Positions 13,977 to 25,363 of a stretch of DNA of 48,658 bases are shown here, piece after piece. The stretch is from positions 1-48,658 of the forward strand of contig JAIOAT010000022.1 in the NCBI GenBank assembly GCA_019873685.1. The letters are read 5' to 3'. Below the pieces are notes generated by a model. The model was given only the letters and a program-made list of their open reading frames with translations. It was not told the origin of the DNA and searched no databases. Each line of letters begins with the position of its first letter. The stretch's first letter is position 1. Source of the DNA: Chloroflexota bacterium. Lineage in GTDB: Bacteria > Chloroflexota > Anaerolineae > Aggregatilineales > Ch27. The position numbers and the translations under genes are program-made.

Positions 13977-14660
13977 TTACTTCTTCTTGCCGCCGAACAG
14001 GCGCGGCTCGTACTTGCGCGAAGGGCCAATGTCCAGCAGATCGGCCTGCGCCTCCTCCGCGATCAGCTTCTCCAGCAGCGCCCGGTCCGCGCCGACCTCT
14101 TTGATGTACACCTCAGCATAGCCCCCGCCCGGCTCCGGGAAGGTGACGATATTGAGCATGTTCCCGCCCGCCTTGGCCACCGCCGCGGCCACGCTGGCCA
14201 GCGCACCGGGTTTGTCCTCCAGGCGCACGGTCAGGGCCAGGCCGCGCTCATGCCCACCCAGCACATCCACAAAAGCGCGGAAGATGTCCGTCTCCGTGAT
14301 AATGCCGACGATCTCCTCCCCGCGCACCACCGGCAGGCAACTGAACTGGTTCTCAGTCATGATCCGCGCCGCTTCCTCCAGCGGGCAGTCCTCCCCCACC
14401 GCGTAGACCGGCGTGGACATAATCTGCCGCAGCTTGAGGTTGTCCAGCAGGGTGTAGATCTCGTAGATGCTCAGCGTAGTAGCGGGCGACGGCTGGTTGG
14501 AGAGCAGGTCGTTTTCCACCACGATGCCCACCAGCCGGCCCTGTTCCACAACCGGCAGATGGCGGATCTGATTGTCGCGCATCAGCTTGACGGCCTGGGA
14601 ATGGGTGGTATCCGGGGTGGCAGTGATCACATTGCGGGTCATACGGCGGGCGACGATCAT
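13977..14660 (-). CDS. CBS-pair and ACT domain protein (AcuB-like)
   Basis: A 227-residue cytoplasmic sensor-type protein. Two CBS motifs form one Bateman module (about 1-135): MTRNVITATPDTTHSQAVKLM with HLPVVEQGRLVGIVVENDL, then IMSTPVYAVGEDCPLEEAARIM with CLPVVRGEEIVGIITETDI. An ACT domain (about 142-215) follows, LTVRLEDKPGALASVAAAVA. CBS pairs usually bind adenine nucleotides and ACT domains bind amino acids, so it may report energy or amino-acid state. The AcuB name only reflects architecture. AGGAGG lies nine bases before the ATG. CATAAT at 14710-14715 is a candidate -10. The gene ends in the hairpin at 13916-13946. Confidence 0.88.
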   Translation of the reverse strand: MIVARRMTRNVITATPDTTHSQAVKLMRDNQIRHLPVVEQGRLVGIVVENDLLSNQPSPATTLSIYEIYTLLDNLKLRQIMSTPVYAVGEDCPLEEAARIMTENQFSCLPVVRGEEIVGIITETDIFRAFVDVLGGHERGLALTVRLEDKPGALASVAAAVAKAGGNMLNIVTFPEPGGGYAEVYIKEVGADRALLEKLIAEEAQADLLDIGPSRKYEPRLFGGKKK

Positions 14661-18025: not shown

Positions 18026-19165
18026 ATGGCAATCCGGACACTCATCCTATCCGGCGGCGGCGGGCGCGGGGCCTTTCACATCGGTGTGCTGGATTACCTC
18101 AGCCAGGCCGATAAGCCGGGCGTCGACGCCGCGCATCAGGGGCCGTGGGAGCCGGAGATCATCGTCGGCACCTCGATCGGCGCGGTCAATGGCGCAGCCA
18201 TCGCCCAGGGCATGACCAGCCAGGAACTGATCGCTCGCTGGCGGGCGCTGGAAGAAGCGCATGTTGAAGGGCTGCCGCCGCTGATGGGGCCGCTGGCCCG
18301 CTGGTTTTCCAACCGGGTCTACCGGCGCATCCTCGACGAGCGCCTGCCTACCGTGCCCGGCGACGTGGCCACCTCCATGCCGCCGCCCGACACCTGGCCG
18401 CTGCTGCCCTTTCTGCCCGCGGCGCTGAGCAAGCGGCTGTTCGGACGCTGGGCTAACCTGCTGGATACCGGCCCGCTGCGCCGGACGCTGGCCGAAGACT
18501 GGGGCATTAGCCAGGAAAAGCTGGCCGCCAGCGATAAAACCCTGCTGATCAGCGCCACCAACGTCCAGACGGGTGAGCTGCGCGTCTTTGCCAACCGCCC
18601 GATCATCAGCCGTAAGACCGGCCAGGCCCGCACCGATACCGAAGTCGGCATCGATGTTGACCGCATCCTGGCCAGCTGCAGCATCCCGCTAATCTATCCC
18701 TGGACGCGCATCGGCAACGACTACTTCTGGGATGGCGCGGTGGTCGCCAATACGCCGCTTGGCCCCGCGCTGGACGCCGCGGCCAGCCAGTACGACCTGG
18801 AAGAGCCGATGGAAGCGGTCGTCGTGCTGATGACCCCCTGGTGGGAAAGCGGGCAAATCCCGCCTTCGCGCCAGGCGCTGCCCCGCGACTTCGGCCAGGC
18901 GATCACCTGGACGCTGGACTGGGCGCTGCTGGCTTCCTTCCGCGCTCATTTGCAGCTCCTGCGCTCCTTCAATGCCCAGATCGCCCTGGACGAGGCGGCG
19001 GGCGTCCCGCGCCGCTACCGCCGCATTGACGTGATCATCGCCGCGCCGGAGGAATTCCTGCCGGTGGAACGGATCATTGACTATGACGAAGACGCCAGCA
19101 GCGCATTGATCGCGCTGGGACGGGCCGCGGCTCAGGCCGCCTTCCAGAAGACCTTCCCGGCGTAG
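18026..19165 (+). CDS. Patatin-like phospholipase
   Basis: A 379-residue serine lipid acyl hydrolase with a Ser-Asp dyad. The oxyanion motif GGGGRG covers residues 10-15, nucleophile Ser50 lies in GTSIG (48-52), and Asp236 in DGA (236-238). The dyad is complete, so activity is expected. There is no signal peptide or N-terminal membrane helix. A long insert (about 80-170, PPLMGPLARWF to LPAALSKRLFG) may form a lid or membrane-contact part. The family releases fatty acids from phospholipids or other acyl esters. It is divergent from the small membrane protein and convergent with the lipoprotein gene. Confidence 0.88.
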   Translation: MAIRTLILSGGGGRGAFHIGVLDYLSQADKPGVDAAHQGPWEPEIIVGTSIGAVNGAAIAQGMTSQELIARWRALEEAHVEGLPPLMGPLARWFSNRVYRRILDERLPTVPGDVATSMPPPDTWPLLPFLPAALSKRLFGRWANLLDTGPLRRTLAEDWGISQEKLAASDKTLLISATNVQTGELRVFANRPIISRKTGQARTDTEVGIDVDRILASCSIPLIYPWTRIGNDYFWDGAVVANTPLGPALDAAASQYDLEEPMEAVVVLMTPWWESGQIPPSRQALPRDFGQAITWTLDWALLASFRAHLQLLRSFNAQIALDEAAGVPRRYRRIDVIIAAPEEFLPVERIIDYDEDASSALIALGRAAAQAAFQKTFPA

Positions 19166-21064: not shown

Positions 21065-22048
21065 ATGCCCCCGGAAGTGCTGGTGTTGATCGCTATTGCC
21101 CTGCTGTTCGACTTCTGGAACGGCCTGATGGATTCGGCCAATGTGGTCGCTACGGTGATCTCCTCACGGGCGCTGGGGCCGCGTCTGTCACTGCTGCTGG
21201 CGGCTACCGCCAACGCCGCCGGGCCGTTCATCTTCGGAACGGCTGTCGCCCGCACGGTCGGCAGTGAAGTCATCGCCGAAAACGCCATGACCATCCCGGT
21301 GGTGATCGCGGCGCTGATCGGGGCGATCCTGTGGAACATCATCACTTTCACACTGGGCATCCCTTCCAGTTCCTCCCACGCCCTGATCGGCGGGATGGTT
21401 GGCGCGGTGTGGGCTGGCTATGGATTCGACGCCGTGCGCGTGGACGGGCTGACCAAGGTGCTCGTAGCCCTGTTCGTTTCCCCGCCGCTGGGGATGATGG
21501 CCGGGTACCTCATGGTGCGGCTGTTGCGCTTCCTGGCGTCGTGGTCGTCTCCGCGGGTGAATGTCACCTTCCAGCGCGGGCAAATCCTGACTTCAGTCGC
21601 CCTGGCCCTGGCGCACGGCACGAATGACGCCCAGAAAACGATGGGCATCATCACGCTGGGATTGCTGGCCGGGGGCGTGATCGACCGCTTTGAAGTGCCC
21701 GCCTGGGTGATCGGCATCAGCGCGGGGGCGATCTCGCTGGGCACGCTGCTGGGCGGCTGGCGGGTGATCCGCACGCTGGGACACCGCTTCTACAAGATTC
21801 GCCCCATTCACGGCCTGGGTGCACAGTCGGCCTCCGCCGGGGTGATCATCGGGGCGTCGCTGCTGGGCGGCCCGGTCAGCACGACCCAGGTGGTCAGCTC
21901 GTCGATCGTCGGCGCGGGCGCGGCGCAGCGCGCCCGGATGGTGCGCTGGAATGTCTTTGGCAACATCCTGGTCGCCTGGGTGCTGACCATCCCGCTGGCG
22001 GGGCTGGTCGGGGCGCTGGTCTATAGCCTGCTGCAATGGCTGGGATGA
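21065..22048 (+). CDS. pitA: Low-affinity inorganic phosphate transporter PiT
   Basis: A 327-residue integral membrane protein of the PiT family, which moves metal-phosphate or phosphate with protons. The two inverted family repeats are clear: DFWNGLMDSANVVATVISS near residue 17, and AHGTNDAQKTMGII near residue 180, with the GTND core. The start is ATG 21065. The upstream codons back to 20999 would lie inside the promoter. Bacterial Pit proteins vary from about 330 to 500 residues, and this is the short form. The DUF47 partner follows 208 bases later, a pairing known to control PiT transport. Confidence 0.92.
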   Translation: MPPEVLVLIAIALLFDFWNGLMDSANVVATVISSRALGPRLSLLLAATANAAGPFIFGTAVARTVGSEVIAENAMTIPVVIAALIGAILWNIITFTLGIPSSSSHALIGGMVGAVWAGYGFDAVRVDGLTKVLVALFVSPPLGMMAGYLMVRLLRFLASWSSPRVNVTFQRGQILTSVALALAHGTNDAQKTMGIITLGLLAGGVIDRFEVPAWVIGISAGAISLGTLLGGWRVIRTLGHRFYKIRPIHGLGAQSASAGVIIGASLLGGPVSTTQVVSSSIVGAGAAQRARMVRWNVFGNILVAWVLTIPLAGLVGALVYSLLQWLG

Positions 22049-22145: not shown

Positions 22146-22255
22146 TGCGGGTGATTTCGGCAGCAGCCCGACGCCGTGCCCCGCCGTTTTTATCTACGGA
22201 GCCATTCCATAGCCAGCACGCCAGCAGGACGTTTACCGGAAGGAGCAACCAGGGT

Positions 22256-22909
22256 ATGAACTCCCCCATCGACAGGGTCAAAGAACGCATCCGGGCAGTG
22301 CTGCCACAACGCCAGAACCATTTCCTGCTGCGCCTGACGGAGCAATCGGCCCTTCTGGTGCAGGGTGGCGAGGCGCTGGTGACCTACATGCGCAAGCCCA
22401 GTAACCGCAACGCTCAGGCTCTGCGGGCCATCGAGAAGCAGGCGGACGAAGTGCGGCGCATTCTGATCGACGAGTTAAACCGCACCTTTGTCACCCCGAT
22501 CGACCGCGAGGATATCTTCCTGCTTTCCCGCGCTCTGGATGATGTACTGGACTACATGTACTCGGTCGTCAATGAGATGGACATCCTGGAGGTGCGGCCC
22601 AACGACTACCTGTTGGAGATGGCCCAGCTGCTCAACGACGCCGCCGCCGAACTGAACCTGGCCATGCAGCGGCTGGAGCATCACCCCGGCGTGGCGGAAG
22701 ATCACGCCGTGCGGGCCAAGCAGATCGACAACCGGATGGAGACGCTGTACGCTACAGCCCTGGCCGATCTCTTCCAGGGGCCGCAGGACCTGGGGCATGT
22801 GGTGCGGATGCTCAAGCTGCGCGAGATCTACCGCCATATGCTGCATGCCGTCGGCAGCAGCGACACCGCCGCCAACATCATCAGCGATATCGTGGTCAAA
22901 TTCTTCTAG
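22256..22909 (+). CDS. DUF47 (PhoU-like) partner of PiT transporter
   Basis: A 217-residue all-helical PhoU-domain protein of the DUF47/YkaA group, which pairs with PiT phosphate transporters and regulates or gates them. Acidic, metal-binding helices appear as EKQADEVRRILIDEL and PIDREDIFLLSRALDDVLDY. The latter is the family's most conserved stretch, with its R-E-D motif. The start at ATG 22256 has AGGG five bases ahead. It is separated from pitA by its own candidate Pho box, so it may be transcribed both with pitA and alone. A strong terminator follows. Confidence 0.9.
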   Translation: MNSPIDRVKERIRAVLPQRQNHFLLRLTEQSALLVQGGEALVTYMRKPSNRNAQALRAIEKQADEVRRILIDELNRTFVTPIDREDIFLLSRALDDVLDYMYSVVNEMDILEVRPNDYLLEMAQLLNDAAAELNLAMQRLEHHPGVAEDHAVRAKQIDNRMETLYATALADLFQGPQDLGHVVRMLKLREIYRHMLHAVGSSDTAANIISDIVVKFF

Positions 22910-22942
22910 GCGCCTTCTGACTCTCAATGCCCTGTTGCATCC

Positions 22943-22970
22943 GCCGCCCGCGCCACGGGCGGCGTTTTAT
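22943..22970 (+). terminator. Intrinsic terminator after DUF47 gene
   Basis: GCCGCCCG (22943-22950) pairs with CGGGCGGC (22956-22963) around a 5-base loop and is followed by GTTTTAT. Confidence 0.75.
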
Positions 22971-23089
22971 CCAGCGGCAAAACGGCTTATGATGGAAAGT
23001 GCAGGCATCCCATAACCTGAGCAGTCTGGCCGATCGGTTGCCTGCCCCACATCATGCGTAACGGTAGCCGGGGAGGAGGGCCACCGCCG

Positions 23090-23827
23090 ATGACCGCTAA
23101 CTCCGACCGTTTTCTCAGCGCGTTTGGCAGCATCGAGCACTACCTGCGAACCCTGACCGGGGAGCCAAAACGCACCCGCTTCTATACGCTGGTGGACAAG
23201 GCTGCCGAGACCAACGCAGCGGTGCGCCGCTACGCCGACGACCTCAAGGAATTCGCCGACCTGCGCAACGCCATCATCCACGAGCGCACCGATGAGCATG
23301 TCATCGCCGAGCCGAATGATATGGCCGTCCGGCAGATCGAGCACATCCAGCACCTGCTGGAACACCCGCCGCGAGTCATCCCGGTCTTTCAGAAACCCGT
23401 GTTGAGCATGCAGGCTGTCGATCCTATCGCCGCCGCTGCCTACGCCATGCTGACCCACAACTACTCGCAGTTGCCCATCTATGACGGGCCGGACTTCAGC
23501 GGCCTGCTGACCACGGAGAGCATCGCCCGCTGGCTGGGGCGTTGCGCCCCGCAGAGCCTGGTCAACCTGGAAGCAGTCACCATTGCCGAAGTGCTGGCCT
23601 GCCATTGCGCACAGGCTGGCCGCAACTATCGCTTCTTCAGCCGGGAGGATACCGTCTTTACTGCGCTGGAAGCCTTCCAGTCCTGCGAGCAATGCGGCCA
23701 GCGGCTGGACGCCATCCTGATCACGGAGCACGGTGGTGAAGCGGAAAGCCTGCTGGGCATCATCACCATCTGGGATGTGCCGCGCATCTACGAAACGATG
23801 GAGGAACGGATCGGGGCGGAAGTCTAG
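23090..23827 (+). CDS. HEPN-like domain fused to a CBS pair
   Basis: A 245-residue protein. The N-terminal helical part (about 1-90) has DLRNAIIHERTDEHVIAEP, with Arg59-x4-His64. This is the RNxxxH motif of HEPN domains, which in many cases are RNases or nucleotidyltransferase partners. The rest (about 95-245) carries two CBS-type motifs, with YSQLPIYDGPDFSGLLTTESIARWL and AILITEHGG..SLLGIITIWDV. The start is ATG 23090, with GGGGAGGAGGG ten bases ahead; ATG 23054 lacks one. It may cut or bind RNA under nucleotide control, or the HEPN part may be structural. It lies between the phosphate genes and tRNA-Arg. Confidence 0.72.
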   Translation: MTANSDRFLSAFGSIEHYLRTLTGEPKRTRFYTLVDKAAETNAAVRRYADDLKEFADLRNAIIHERTDEHVIAEPNDMAVRQIEHIQHLLEHPPRVIPVFQKPVLSMQAVDPIAAAAYAMLTHNYSQLPIYDGPDFSGLLTTESIARWLGRCAPQSLVNLEAVTIAEVLACHCAQAGRNYRFFSREDTVFTALEAFQSCEQCGQRLDAILITEHGGEAESLLGIITIWDVPRIYETMEERIGAEV

Positions 23828-23855
23828 CGGCAGCAGCAGGGGGGCGAATCAAAAG

Positions 23856-23929
23856 TGCCCCCGGACGGATTTGAACCGCCGACGCCAGGTTTAGGAAACC
23901 TGCGCTCTATCCTCTGAGCTACGGGGGCA
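23856..23929 (-). tRNA. tRNA-Arg (anticodon CCT)
   Basis: Reading the minus strand, 7-bp acceptor arms (TGCCCCC/GGGGGCA), a D arm, the anticodon stem CAGGT/ACCTG with loop TTCCTAA (anticodon CCT, reads AGG), and the T arm with TTCAAAT all fold as a 74-base tRNA. CCA is not encoded. A weak TGTCAGAAT extended -10 lies at 23964-23972. Confidence 0.95.
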
Positions 23930-23939
23930 GGGCTGGCCC

Positions 23940-24367
23940 GACGGGGCCGCCGGGCGCCCTGAGATTCTGACAGACGTTCCCCCCGCCGTCAAGACCGCGC
24001 CTGCCCGGCATGGGGACTCGCCCTGCCGGTCAAAGGCTACAAAGCGATTCTGGCGGTTTGCCGTAGCCATGCAGGCCACGCCTGTGGTATGGATTAGAGC
24101 AAATCGGCTATTTTTCGCAGGAATTTGTCAGGTAAAGCTTGGCAATTTGCGCCGGGGTGGGTACTATACGTGTTGCCGTGCGTGACGGGTATCAGCATCG
24201 CCCTGTCGCCACATCTCCCGGTGCACCGGGTGGGGGTTCCTGTGCCCGGCGGCCAGCCCAGAAGGTCAAAAACTGCTAAGCAAAGACTTGGCAGATTTTT
24301 TGTCTTTCAATTAAAATACCCGGTCAACGCCGGAGTATCGCACTTATGGATATAAGGAGAGCCGCAC
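23940..24367. other. Intergenic region upstream of peptide transporter operon
   Basis: No credible gene lies in these 428 bases. The only fair-sized open frame (24125-24355) has no ribosome site and an implausible composition. The region holds the tRNA promoter on the left and the operon promoter and ribosome site on the right. Confidence 0.55.
24288..24317 (+). promoter_or_regulatory. Promoter of oligopeptide transporter operon
   Basis: TTGGCA (24288-24293), an 18-base T-rich spacer and TAAAAT (24312-24317) form a sigma-70-type promoter about 50 bases before the TTG start of the first ATPase gene. Confidence 0.55.
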
Positions 24368-25363
24368 TTGACCATTCTAATGGAGGTCAAGAACCTCAAA
24401 ACCAAATTCCATACGCAGGAGGGGACGGTCCACGCCGTAAACGGCATCTCCTACACGCTGAATGAGGGCGAAACCCTGGGCGTTGTGGGGGAAAGCGGCT
24501 GCGGCAAAAGCGTTCACGCGCTCTCAATCATGGGGCTGATTCCCCAGCCGCCGGGCGAGGTCATGGCCGACGCTGTGATCTTCCGCGGGCGGGACCTGAT
24601 GAAGCTGTCTTCGGAAGAGATGCGTCTGCTGCGCGGGTCGGAGATCGCCATGGTCTTCCAGGACCCGATGACCTCCCTCAACCCGGTGCTGACCATCGGC
24701 TATCAGATCACTGAGGCGCTGAAGCTGCACCTGGGCATGGACAACCAGCAGGCCCGCGAACGCGCAGCCGAACTGCTGGCCATGGTGGGCATCCCCAGCG
24801 CCGCCAAACGGCTGGACGATTACCCGCACCAGTTCTCCGGCGGTATGCGCCAGCGGGCGATGATCGCCATGGCGCTCTCCTGCAACCCCCAGCTCCTGAT
24901 TGCTGACGAACCGACCACCGCCCTCGACGTGACCATCCAGGCCCAGATTCTGGATCTGGTCCGCCGCCTGCGTGACAAGATCGGCATGGCCATGATCTGG
25001 ATCACTCATGATCTGGGTGTGGTGGCCGGGCTGGCTGATACGGTGCAGGTCATGTACGCTGGCTATATCGTGGAGCGCGGCCCCAACCGCGAGATTTTCA
25101 AGGATACCCGCCACCCCTATACCCTCGGCCTGCTGGGGTCGCTGCCGCGCCTGGACCGCAAGGGCGGCAAGCTCTTCTCCATTGAAGGCGCCCCGCCAGA
25201 TCTGCGTATCGAGCCGAAAGGCTGCCCTTTTGCCCCGCGCTGCATCTACCGGGTAGAGAGGTGCTTGCAGGAAAATCCGTCGCTGGAACCGGCCAAGGAT
25301 GCGTTCCCGGGCCATACGGTGGCCTGCTGGGTCGATGTGCGTGAGGGAGAACCAACTCGATGA
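24368..25363 (+). CDS. oppD: Di/oligopeptide ABC transporter ATP-binding protein (OppD/DppD-like)
   Basis: A 331-residue ATPase of a type I peptide importer. Walker A GESGCGKS (41-48), signature FSGGMRQR (156-163), Walker B LLIADE (176-181) and an oligopeptide C-terminal domain with CPFAPRC are complete. The start is TTG 24368, eight bases after AAGGAG (24354-24359). ATG 24380 is the alternative. Its TGA overlaps the next ATG (ATGA). OppD and OppF proteins form the heterodimeric motor for the permeases encoded downstream. The substrate could be dipeptides, oligopeptides or nickel, and no binding protein is present to decide. Confidence 0.93.

Follow-up and report, generated by a model that had tools for sequence, protein, structure and literature searches.

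Proteins that join a HEPN domain to CBS domains were listed in 2013, and the text on these fusions proposes that they respond to nucleotides through altered RNA stability (Anantharaman et al., PMC3710099). A CBS+HEPN protein named DS-11 blocks phage (DefensePredictor, Science 2026, PMC13092281), and mutation of the CBS tyrosine Y157, like mutation of the catalytic residues of HEPN, abolished its defence. Its authors propose an adenine derivative as the regulator of the nuclease and state that no CBS-domain defence system had been characterised before (PMC13092281). Within the searchable text of open-access PMC papers, HEPN and CBS were found in one protein only in these two sources, and none of the open-access PMC papers searched was found to describe the family treated below.

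Here we analysed a 48,658-nucleotide stretch of Chloroflexota DNA (the window), in which one gene encodes a candidate fusion of this kind. Its features are given below.

23090..23827, plus strand: HEPN-CBS gene, 245 aa (P0001)
23090..23374, plus strand: HEPN-like helical domain, residues 1-95 (AlphaFold2 model; Foldseek, VIA)
23264..23281, plus strand: RNAIIH motif, R59 to H64 (conserved 15/15; aligned on HepT LRNIAVH)
23381..23545, plus strand: CBS motif 1, about residues 98-152 (PF00571)
23627..23809, plus strand: CBS motif 2, about residues 180-240 (second PF00571 stretch; limits by eye)

Predicted architecture of the HEPN-CBS protein

The open reading frame is a real gene under purifying selection, since dN/dS was 0.07 against the 96%-identical copy of G001, which belongs to the same genus; the two halves of the protein gave 0.084 and 0.065. 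An alternative in-frame ATG at 23054 would yield a product of 257 aa; the alignment of relatives begins at about the 23090 ATG. No convincing model for the N-terminal half or for the entire protein was found in Pfam, NCBIfam or PADLOC, and the CBS pair alone scored above the Pfam cut-off.

Conservation was read from 15 aligned full-length members, 28-96% identical to the window protein and counting it among them. They comprise the proteins of the window, G001 and G002, seven further Chloroflexota proteins, those of a Chlorohelix and a Rhodococcus plasmid, one from a Bacillota MAG, and two from bacterial contigs filed as phage. Left out were two near-identical plasmid copies that are truncated or frameshifted and in which the motif RNAISH is visible (L012, L014), a broken copy (L013), a copy at a contig edge (L017), L020 (identical with L011), repeats of the window, G001 and G002 proteins (L003/L019, L062, L063), and L028-L032, which belong to another HEPN-CBS family or are distant.

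The preliminary description had proposed a HEPN-like domain joined to a CBS pair, had taken RNAIIH (Arg59-x4-His64) as the HEPN motif, and had named the HEPN helical bundle and the conservation of the Arg/His pair as the points on which this could be checked. It held up on each of them: the motif is present as described, R59 and H64 are invariant, the predicted structure is a helical bundle whose matches are led by HEPN entries, and PF00571 identifies the CBS pair. By itself, an R-x4-H motif is at chance level and is no evidence of HEPN, as Rx4-6H occurred in 86% of shuffles of the window protein, Rx4H in 48% and RNx3H in 1.9%. A chance motif was rejected as the explanation on conservation and fold. 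L52, L58, R59, N60 and H64 are the same in all 15 full-length members, and R20, a further polar residue, is kept in 12 of them. Residues 1-95 modelled by themselves with AlphaFold2 (pLDDT 88.7, pTM 0.80) fold into helices at 3-23, 31-41, 43-47, 49-64 and 77-91, and R59-N-x3-H64 closes the third long one (49-64).

When this model was compared with the PDB by Foldseek, rows 1-6 were all HEPN (human sacsin HEPN and Shewanella HepT; prob 0.66-0.92, TMq 0.46-0.55, E 0.31-1.1), and at row 7 prob fell to 0.14. Rows 2-7 of the VIA comparison were named HEPN/HepT entries (Z 8.3-6.9, rmsd 2.7-3.3, 89-95 residues), with designed helical bundles starting at Z 6.8 and so tying with the lowest HEPN rows at Z 6.9, and with the VIA warning that helical matches scoring below about Z 13 may reflect no more than a common arrangement. 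Entries 1wwp and 2jpu, which we take to have a HEPN-type fold, also rank high in VIA; their titles do not name HEPN, and they were excluded from the HEPN tally. A profile search of the HEPN half against the PDB placed LRNaiVH on LRNIAVH of HepT in exact register with a weak E of 0.13-0.19, and the top of that search was TrwJ (E 0.077), which ranked above HepT and looks like a chance match. None of the curated models supports the HEPN call, the best being weak matches of the window protein to Pfam DUF3644 (E 0.093) and to CARF_HEPN (E 0.056). Each of these lines is modest singly; on conservation, the model, the structure comparisons and the HepT profile register combined, we accept the N-terminal half as a predicted HEPN domain.

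Such a domain might be nuclease-inactive and serve for dimerisation or for binding of RNA or a nucleotide, the protein then working through its CBS pair. Some HEPN domains are indeed inactive, the sacsin HEPN, which is a top structural match, is to our knowledge not an RNase, and R20 is incompletely conserved. Inactive HEPN domains, however, usually lose the catalytic-type R-N-H trio, and here all 15 members keep R59-N60-H64, which are among only ten positions of the entire protein that never vary. We regard an inactive domain as improbable.

The C-terminal half matched PF00571 at 33.7 bits (cut-off 24) in two stretches, and a profile search matched the window protein to solved CBS proteins. 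The adenosyl-ligand signature of CBS pairs is h-h-T/S-x-x-D/N. T141 of CBS motif 1 is T or S in all 15 members, with position 144 varying, and in CBS motif 2 T226 is found in 9 and D229 in 14 of the 15. The CBS half of the full-length model is poor (pLDDT 27-49), and the ligand cleft is not well modelled. CBS pairs can also bind c-di-AMP, according to the text of PMC10243994 on these domains. One of the CBS matches was PDB 9znf chain 4, a CBS protein of an archaeal 70S ribosome complex (SriA/SriB), and contacts between CBS modules and RNA machinery may be commoner than has been supposed. A separate second CBS-domain protein of 227 aa, read by eye, is encoded about 8 kb off in the window (13977-14660, minus strand).

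Relation to DS-11, HepT and other HEPN-CBS proteins

The window protein resembles DS-11 (NF053863, DS11_antiphage) in that one protein combines a CBS pair with a HEPN domain carrying R-N-x3-H. DS-11, however, has an extra N-terminal region followed by CBS and has HEPN at the C-terminus, whereas in the window protein HEPN comes first and CBS last. NF053863 scored 27.3 bits on the window protein against a cut-off of 260, and the match covered CBS only (positions 82-135 of 305). Four proteins in the 400 Chloroflexota genomes passed that cut-off (L033-L036), each with RNxxMH near the C-terminus; these four, together with L037, which lies below it (206 bits), made up the DS-11 alignments. With hhalign, the CBS halves of the two families aligned at a probability of 96.9, and the HEPN halves at 1.7, which is not significant, with the motifs falling in register. 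Membership in DS-11 was rejected on score, domain order and HEPN profile, and sequence comparison suggests that the reversed arrangement is likely a fusion separate from DS-11.

The fusions listed in 2013 share with the window protein the joining of HEPN to CBS (PMC3710099). The text of that survey names alr3009 as an example, giving CBS and HD for it, and introduces the Pelobacter example (gi 118580987) after a sentence that deals with the addition of HD domains; both were set against the window protein by description only.

HepT of the MntA-HepT (HEPN-MNT) system is among the best solved structural relatives, with a shared fold and LRNIAVH in register. It differs in its genomic partner, as no nucleotidyltransferase gene lies beside the window gene, which is accompanied by DUF47, tRNA-Arg and an oligopeptide ABC ATPase. 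It differs also in the tyrosine at His+2, which is the AMPylation site of HepT (Y104 in a PDB title) and is absent from the HEPN-CBS family: position 66 is Y in none of the 15 members, being R in 10, H in 2, and T, P and K in 1 each. An HEPN-MNT pair was rejected on the missing partner and the missing tyrosine, and the HEPN-MNT mode of control therefore does not apply.

A second Chloroflexota HEPN-CBS family has the domain order of the window protein; in hhalign the two aligned at a probability of 99.4, over a stretch that begins at the motif helix and takes in the CBS pair. The match stops short of the first HEPN helices, and the proteins are partial matches to the model of the window family. 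L028, L030, L031 and L032 of this second family carry RNCLAH, and L029 carries RNLLTH, in each case before the CBS pair; these proteins perhaps make up a wider undescribed HEPN-CBS group.

Phosphate-uptake neighbours and the tRNA-Arg site

The HEPN-CBS gene is flanked by the following features.

21065..22048, plus strand: PiT-type phosphate permease (PF01384, E 6e-80); a neighbour, not thought part of the system
22253..22909, plus strand: DUF47/PhoU-like (PhoU_div) protein (PF01865, E 8e-15); a neighbour, not thought part of the system
22942..22964, plus strand: terminator-like hairpin, 9 G-C pairs then TTTT, between the DUF47 and HEPN-CBS genes
23855..23928, minus strand: tRNA-Arg(CCT), convergent, 27 bp past the HEPN-CBS stop; the same in G001

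The phosphate-uptake neighbours reported earlier were confirmed as PiT and DUF47, but the tie to nutrient state that had been drawn from them did not survive comparison with other genomes. Such a tie would make the gene part of a phosphate regulon, its product sensing adenylate and adjusting the PiT/DUF47 system or its mRNA. The gene does lie on the same strand as DUF47, 180 bp downstream, in an order common to G001, and a consensus scan listed no sigma-70-like plus-strand promoter between the two genes, so that read-through from DUF47 is possible. Against this stands the hairpin between them, which is weak support, being a consensus match only from a scan whose 5 sites are not above chance in number (3.1 in shuffles, sd 2.1). 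The main grounds for rejecting the phosphate link are the loci of G007, G003 and G004. Four of the eight relatives searched have a DUF47 protein; the HEPN-CBS gene accompanies it in G001 and is lacking in G003, G004 and G007. PiT adjoins DUF47 in G003 and G007, and the G004 contig stops inside DUF47. PiT, DUF47 and tRNA-Arg(CCT) are consecutive in G007, which is an empty site without the HEPN-CBS gene, whereas in the window and in G001 the gene sits between DUF47 and the same tRNA-Arg. The gene has different neighbours in G002 (60% identical), as it has in the remaining contexts inspected. The G007 site largely refutes the phosphate-regulon reading, to which we assign very little probability, and the gene most likely lies beside the phosphate genes by accident.

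Set against the window and G001, the G007 site indicates a gain of the gene in the former two, or else a loss in G007, at a position beside the tRNA. A search of the tRNA-Arg insertion from 22850 to 24400 found no attachment repeat, and site-specific integration is therefore not claimed. The GC and GC3 of the gene are like those of its neighbours.

Distribution, genomic contexts and the enterococcal branch

The HEPN-CBS family is patchy in distribution. In the order, 121 genomes were searched and 3 carry it, the source genome of the window among them; in the phylum, 14 of 400 genomes match at E <= 1e-8, where nine matches are full-length (that of the window counted) and five are partial, starting at model positions 53-71. 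Five of 72,556 plasmid records hold the gene, three of them as truncated or broken copies. Three queries found no relative in viral_contigs. L015, L016 and L017 (OR849199.1, OR846607.1 and OR847038.1) are filed as Listeria/Enterococcus phage genomes and are bacterial chromosome, as their lspA and rluD and, in L016 and L017, their pyr genes indicate; no phage-borne copy is therefore claimed. L002 was rejected as a family member, as it looks by eye like a pyrophosphatase with CBS alone in common, and L006-L009 were weak matches. The tree was poorly resolved, with good support for 3 of 12 inner branches, and horizontal transfer is therefore not claimed from it.

Fourteen contexts were counted after G001 had been merged with the window, G202 with G444, L014 with L012, and L015/L017 with L016. 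Restriction or defence genes surround the HEPN-CBS gene in 6 of the 14, and the other 8, the window included, look ordinary, a split that was drawn after inspecting the contexts. In G434, an Eco57I/type IIG-like methylase piece lies directly upstream of the HEPN-CBS gene, which is followed by HARE-HTH, an unknown gene, GmrSD and an SNF2 helicase whose PLD match is below threshold. The order in G238 is PLD-SNF2 helicase, type IIG enzyme, DUF488, DuOB and then the HEPN-CBS gene. The Chlorohelix plasmid has a type III methylase and, later, an Eco57I/type IIG-like methylase piece that lies directly upstream of the HEPN-CBS gene and overlaps it, and the context on a Rhodococcus conjugative plasmid includes an HNH-type gene and a PLD-DEAD helicase. 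A type III methylase lies near the truncated copy on Rhodococcus pGA2, and SIR2-HerA adjoins the broken copy on C. glutamicum pBL90. No partner gene is found repeatedly in the contexts inspected, and the window itself, its neighbours scanned, is not a defence island.

The contexts were also scanned with PADLOC at E <= 1e-10. The 43 ORFs of the six defence contexts matched 159 models, and the 76 ORFs of the eight ordinary contexts matched 8. Of these 8, mad3 matched three ORFs and the rest one ORF each: PD-T4-2_B, mad2, mad8, two phospholipase effector models, an oxidoreductase (C3a156) and a TIR effector model. In the window, the ABC ATPase accounts for mad3 and mad8 and the patatin gene for the phospholipase matches; a transporter of L016 also matched mad3, the TIR effector match is an ORF of L049, and no ORF was traced for PD-T4-2_B.

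With the precedent of DS-11 and with some relatives in restriction or defence clusters, adenylate-gated RNA cleavage in a defence setting is plausible. The reading that we favour, with moderate confidence, is that of an adenylate-gated HEPN RNase which acts on its own in stress or defence, like DS-11 with the domain order reversed. The protein would act as a homodimer, since CBS pairs and HEPN domains both dimerise, and the two R/H pairs would form a single composite RNase site. An adenine nucleotide (ATP, AMP, Ap4A, c-di-AMP or similar) in the CBS cleft would hold the RNase off or turn it on, and as nucleotide pools shift under infection or stress, cellular RNA would be cut and growth halted. 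A compact family (about 240 aa) of reversed order, its HEPN site invariant, offers a second and independent system in which to ask whether the adenine-nucleotide level is used by cells to unleash RNases.

The contigs L015-L017, which are enterococcus-like chromosome, bear on a different reading. In L016, the order is fhs, HEPN-CBS gene, lspA, rluD, pyrR, permease, pyrB, pyrC and pyrAa, with permease, pyrC and pyrAa assigned by eye. L015 and L017 share HEPN-CBS gene, lspA and rluD, with pyrR onward also present in L017 and with another ORF, not fhs, upstream in L015. The gene order given for E. faecalis V583 in the passages on its pyr genes has pyrR as EF1721, followed by EF1720 pyrP, EF1719 pyrB, EF1718 pyrC and EF1717 pyrAa (PMC2902013, PMC5383250). 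Counting back from pyrR makes rluD EF1722, lspA EF1723 and the HEPN-CBS gene EF1724; the enterococcal gene is thus probably EF1724, as judged from its position and its CBS annotation. In the data of PMC7701990 on this locus, EF1724 is a CBS domain-containing protein with a value of 0.020 (the insertion measure dVal, as we read the table), is classed as Fitness Important in broth, and is among the core genes distinguishing enterococci from Vagococcus. Polarity on lspA is a possible source of the fitness effect. If the identity with EF1724 is true, a branch of the family is important even where no phage is present.

The protein could be pictured as a housekeeping regulator of RNA processing or decay, whose HEPN site would trim or degrade RNA during normal growth and would be tuned by adenylate through the CBS pair, with the copies in defence clusters as secondary recruits. 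This would suit the position just before lspA-rluD-pyrR and the pyr genes in the enterococcus-like contigs, the importance of the probable orthologue in phage-free broth and its place in the genus core (PMC7701990), and the 8 of 14 contexts that look ordinary. It sits poorly with the absence of the gene from nearly all relatives searched, a misfit with an important general function, and with the 6 of 14 contexts that are defence or restriction clusters, and the equation with EF1724 itself comes from gene order and a CBS label. We consider a housekeeping role rather unlikely and retain the stress or defence RNase as the preferred reading.

A wider proposal, which we offer tentatively as one possibility, is that the protein belongs to a so far undescribed family of adenylate-gated RNases with an origin in a fusion separate from DS-11, with some members in restriction-type defence cassettes and on plasmids and an enterococcal branch (probably EF1724) that is a core growth gene. 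If this were true, nature would have joined HEPN to CBS at least twice as energy-reading RNA cutters, and the enterococcal member would be a domesticated immune RNase. The probable core enterococcal member offers a testable bridge from immunity to growth control.

Two further observations concern single loci. A patatin-like phospholipase gene of the window (18026-19165, plus strand, 379 aa) matches PADLOC phospholipase effector models at E 1e-18; no cyclase was seen beside it by eye, and it is probably an ordinary patatin. In the restriction cluster of G434 (L048 9462-10441), the HARE-HTH gene (90 aa) shares 4 bp with the end of the HEPN-CBS gene, and HARE-HTH is a possible partner in that lineage.
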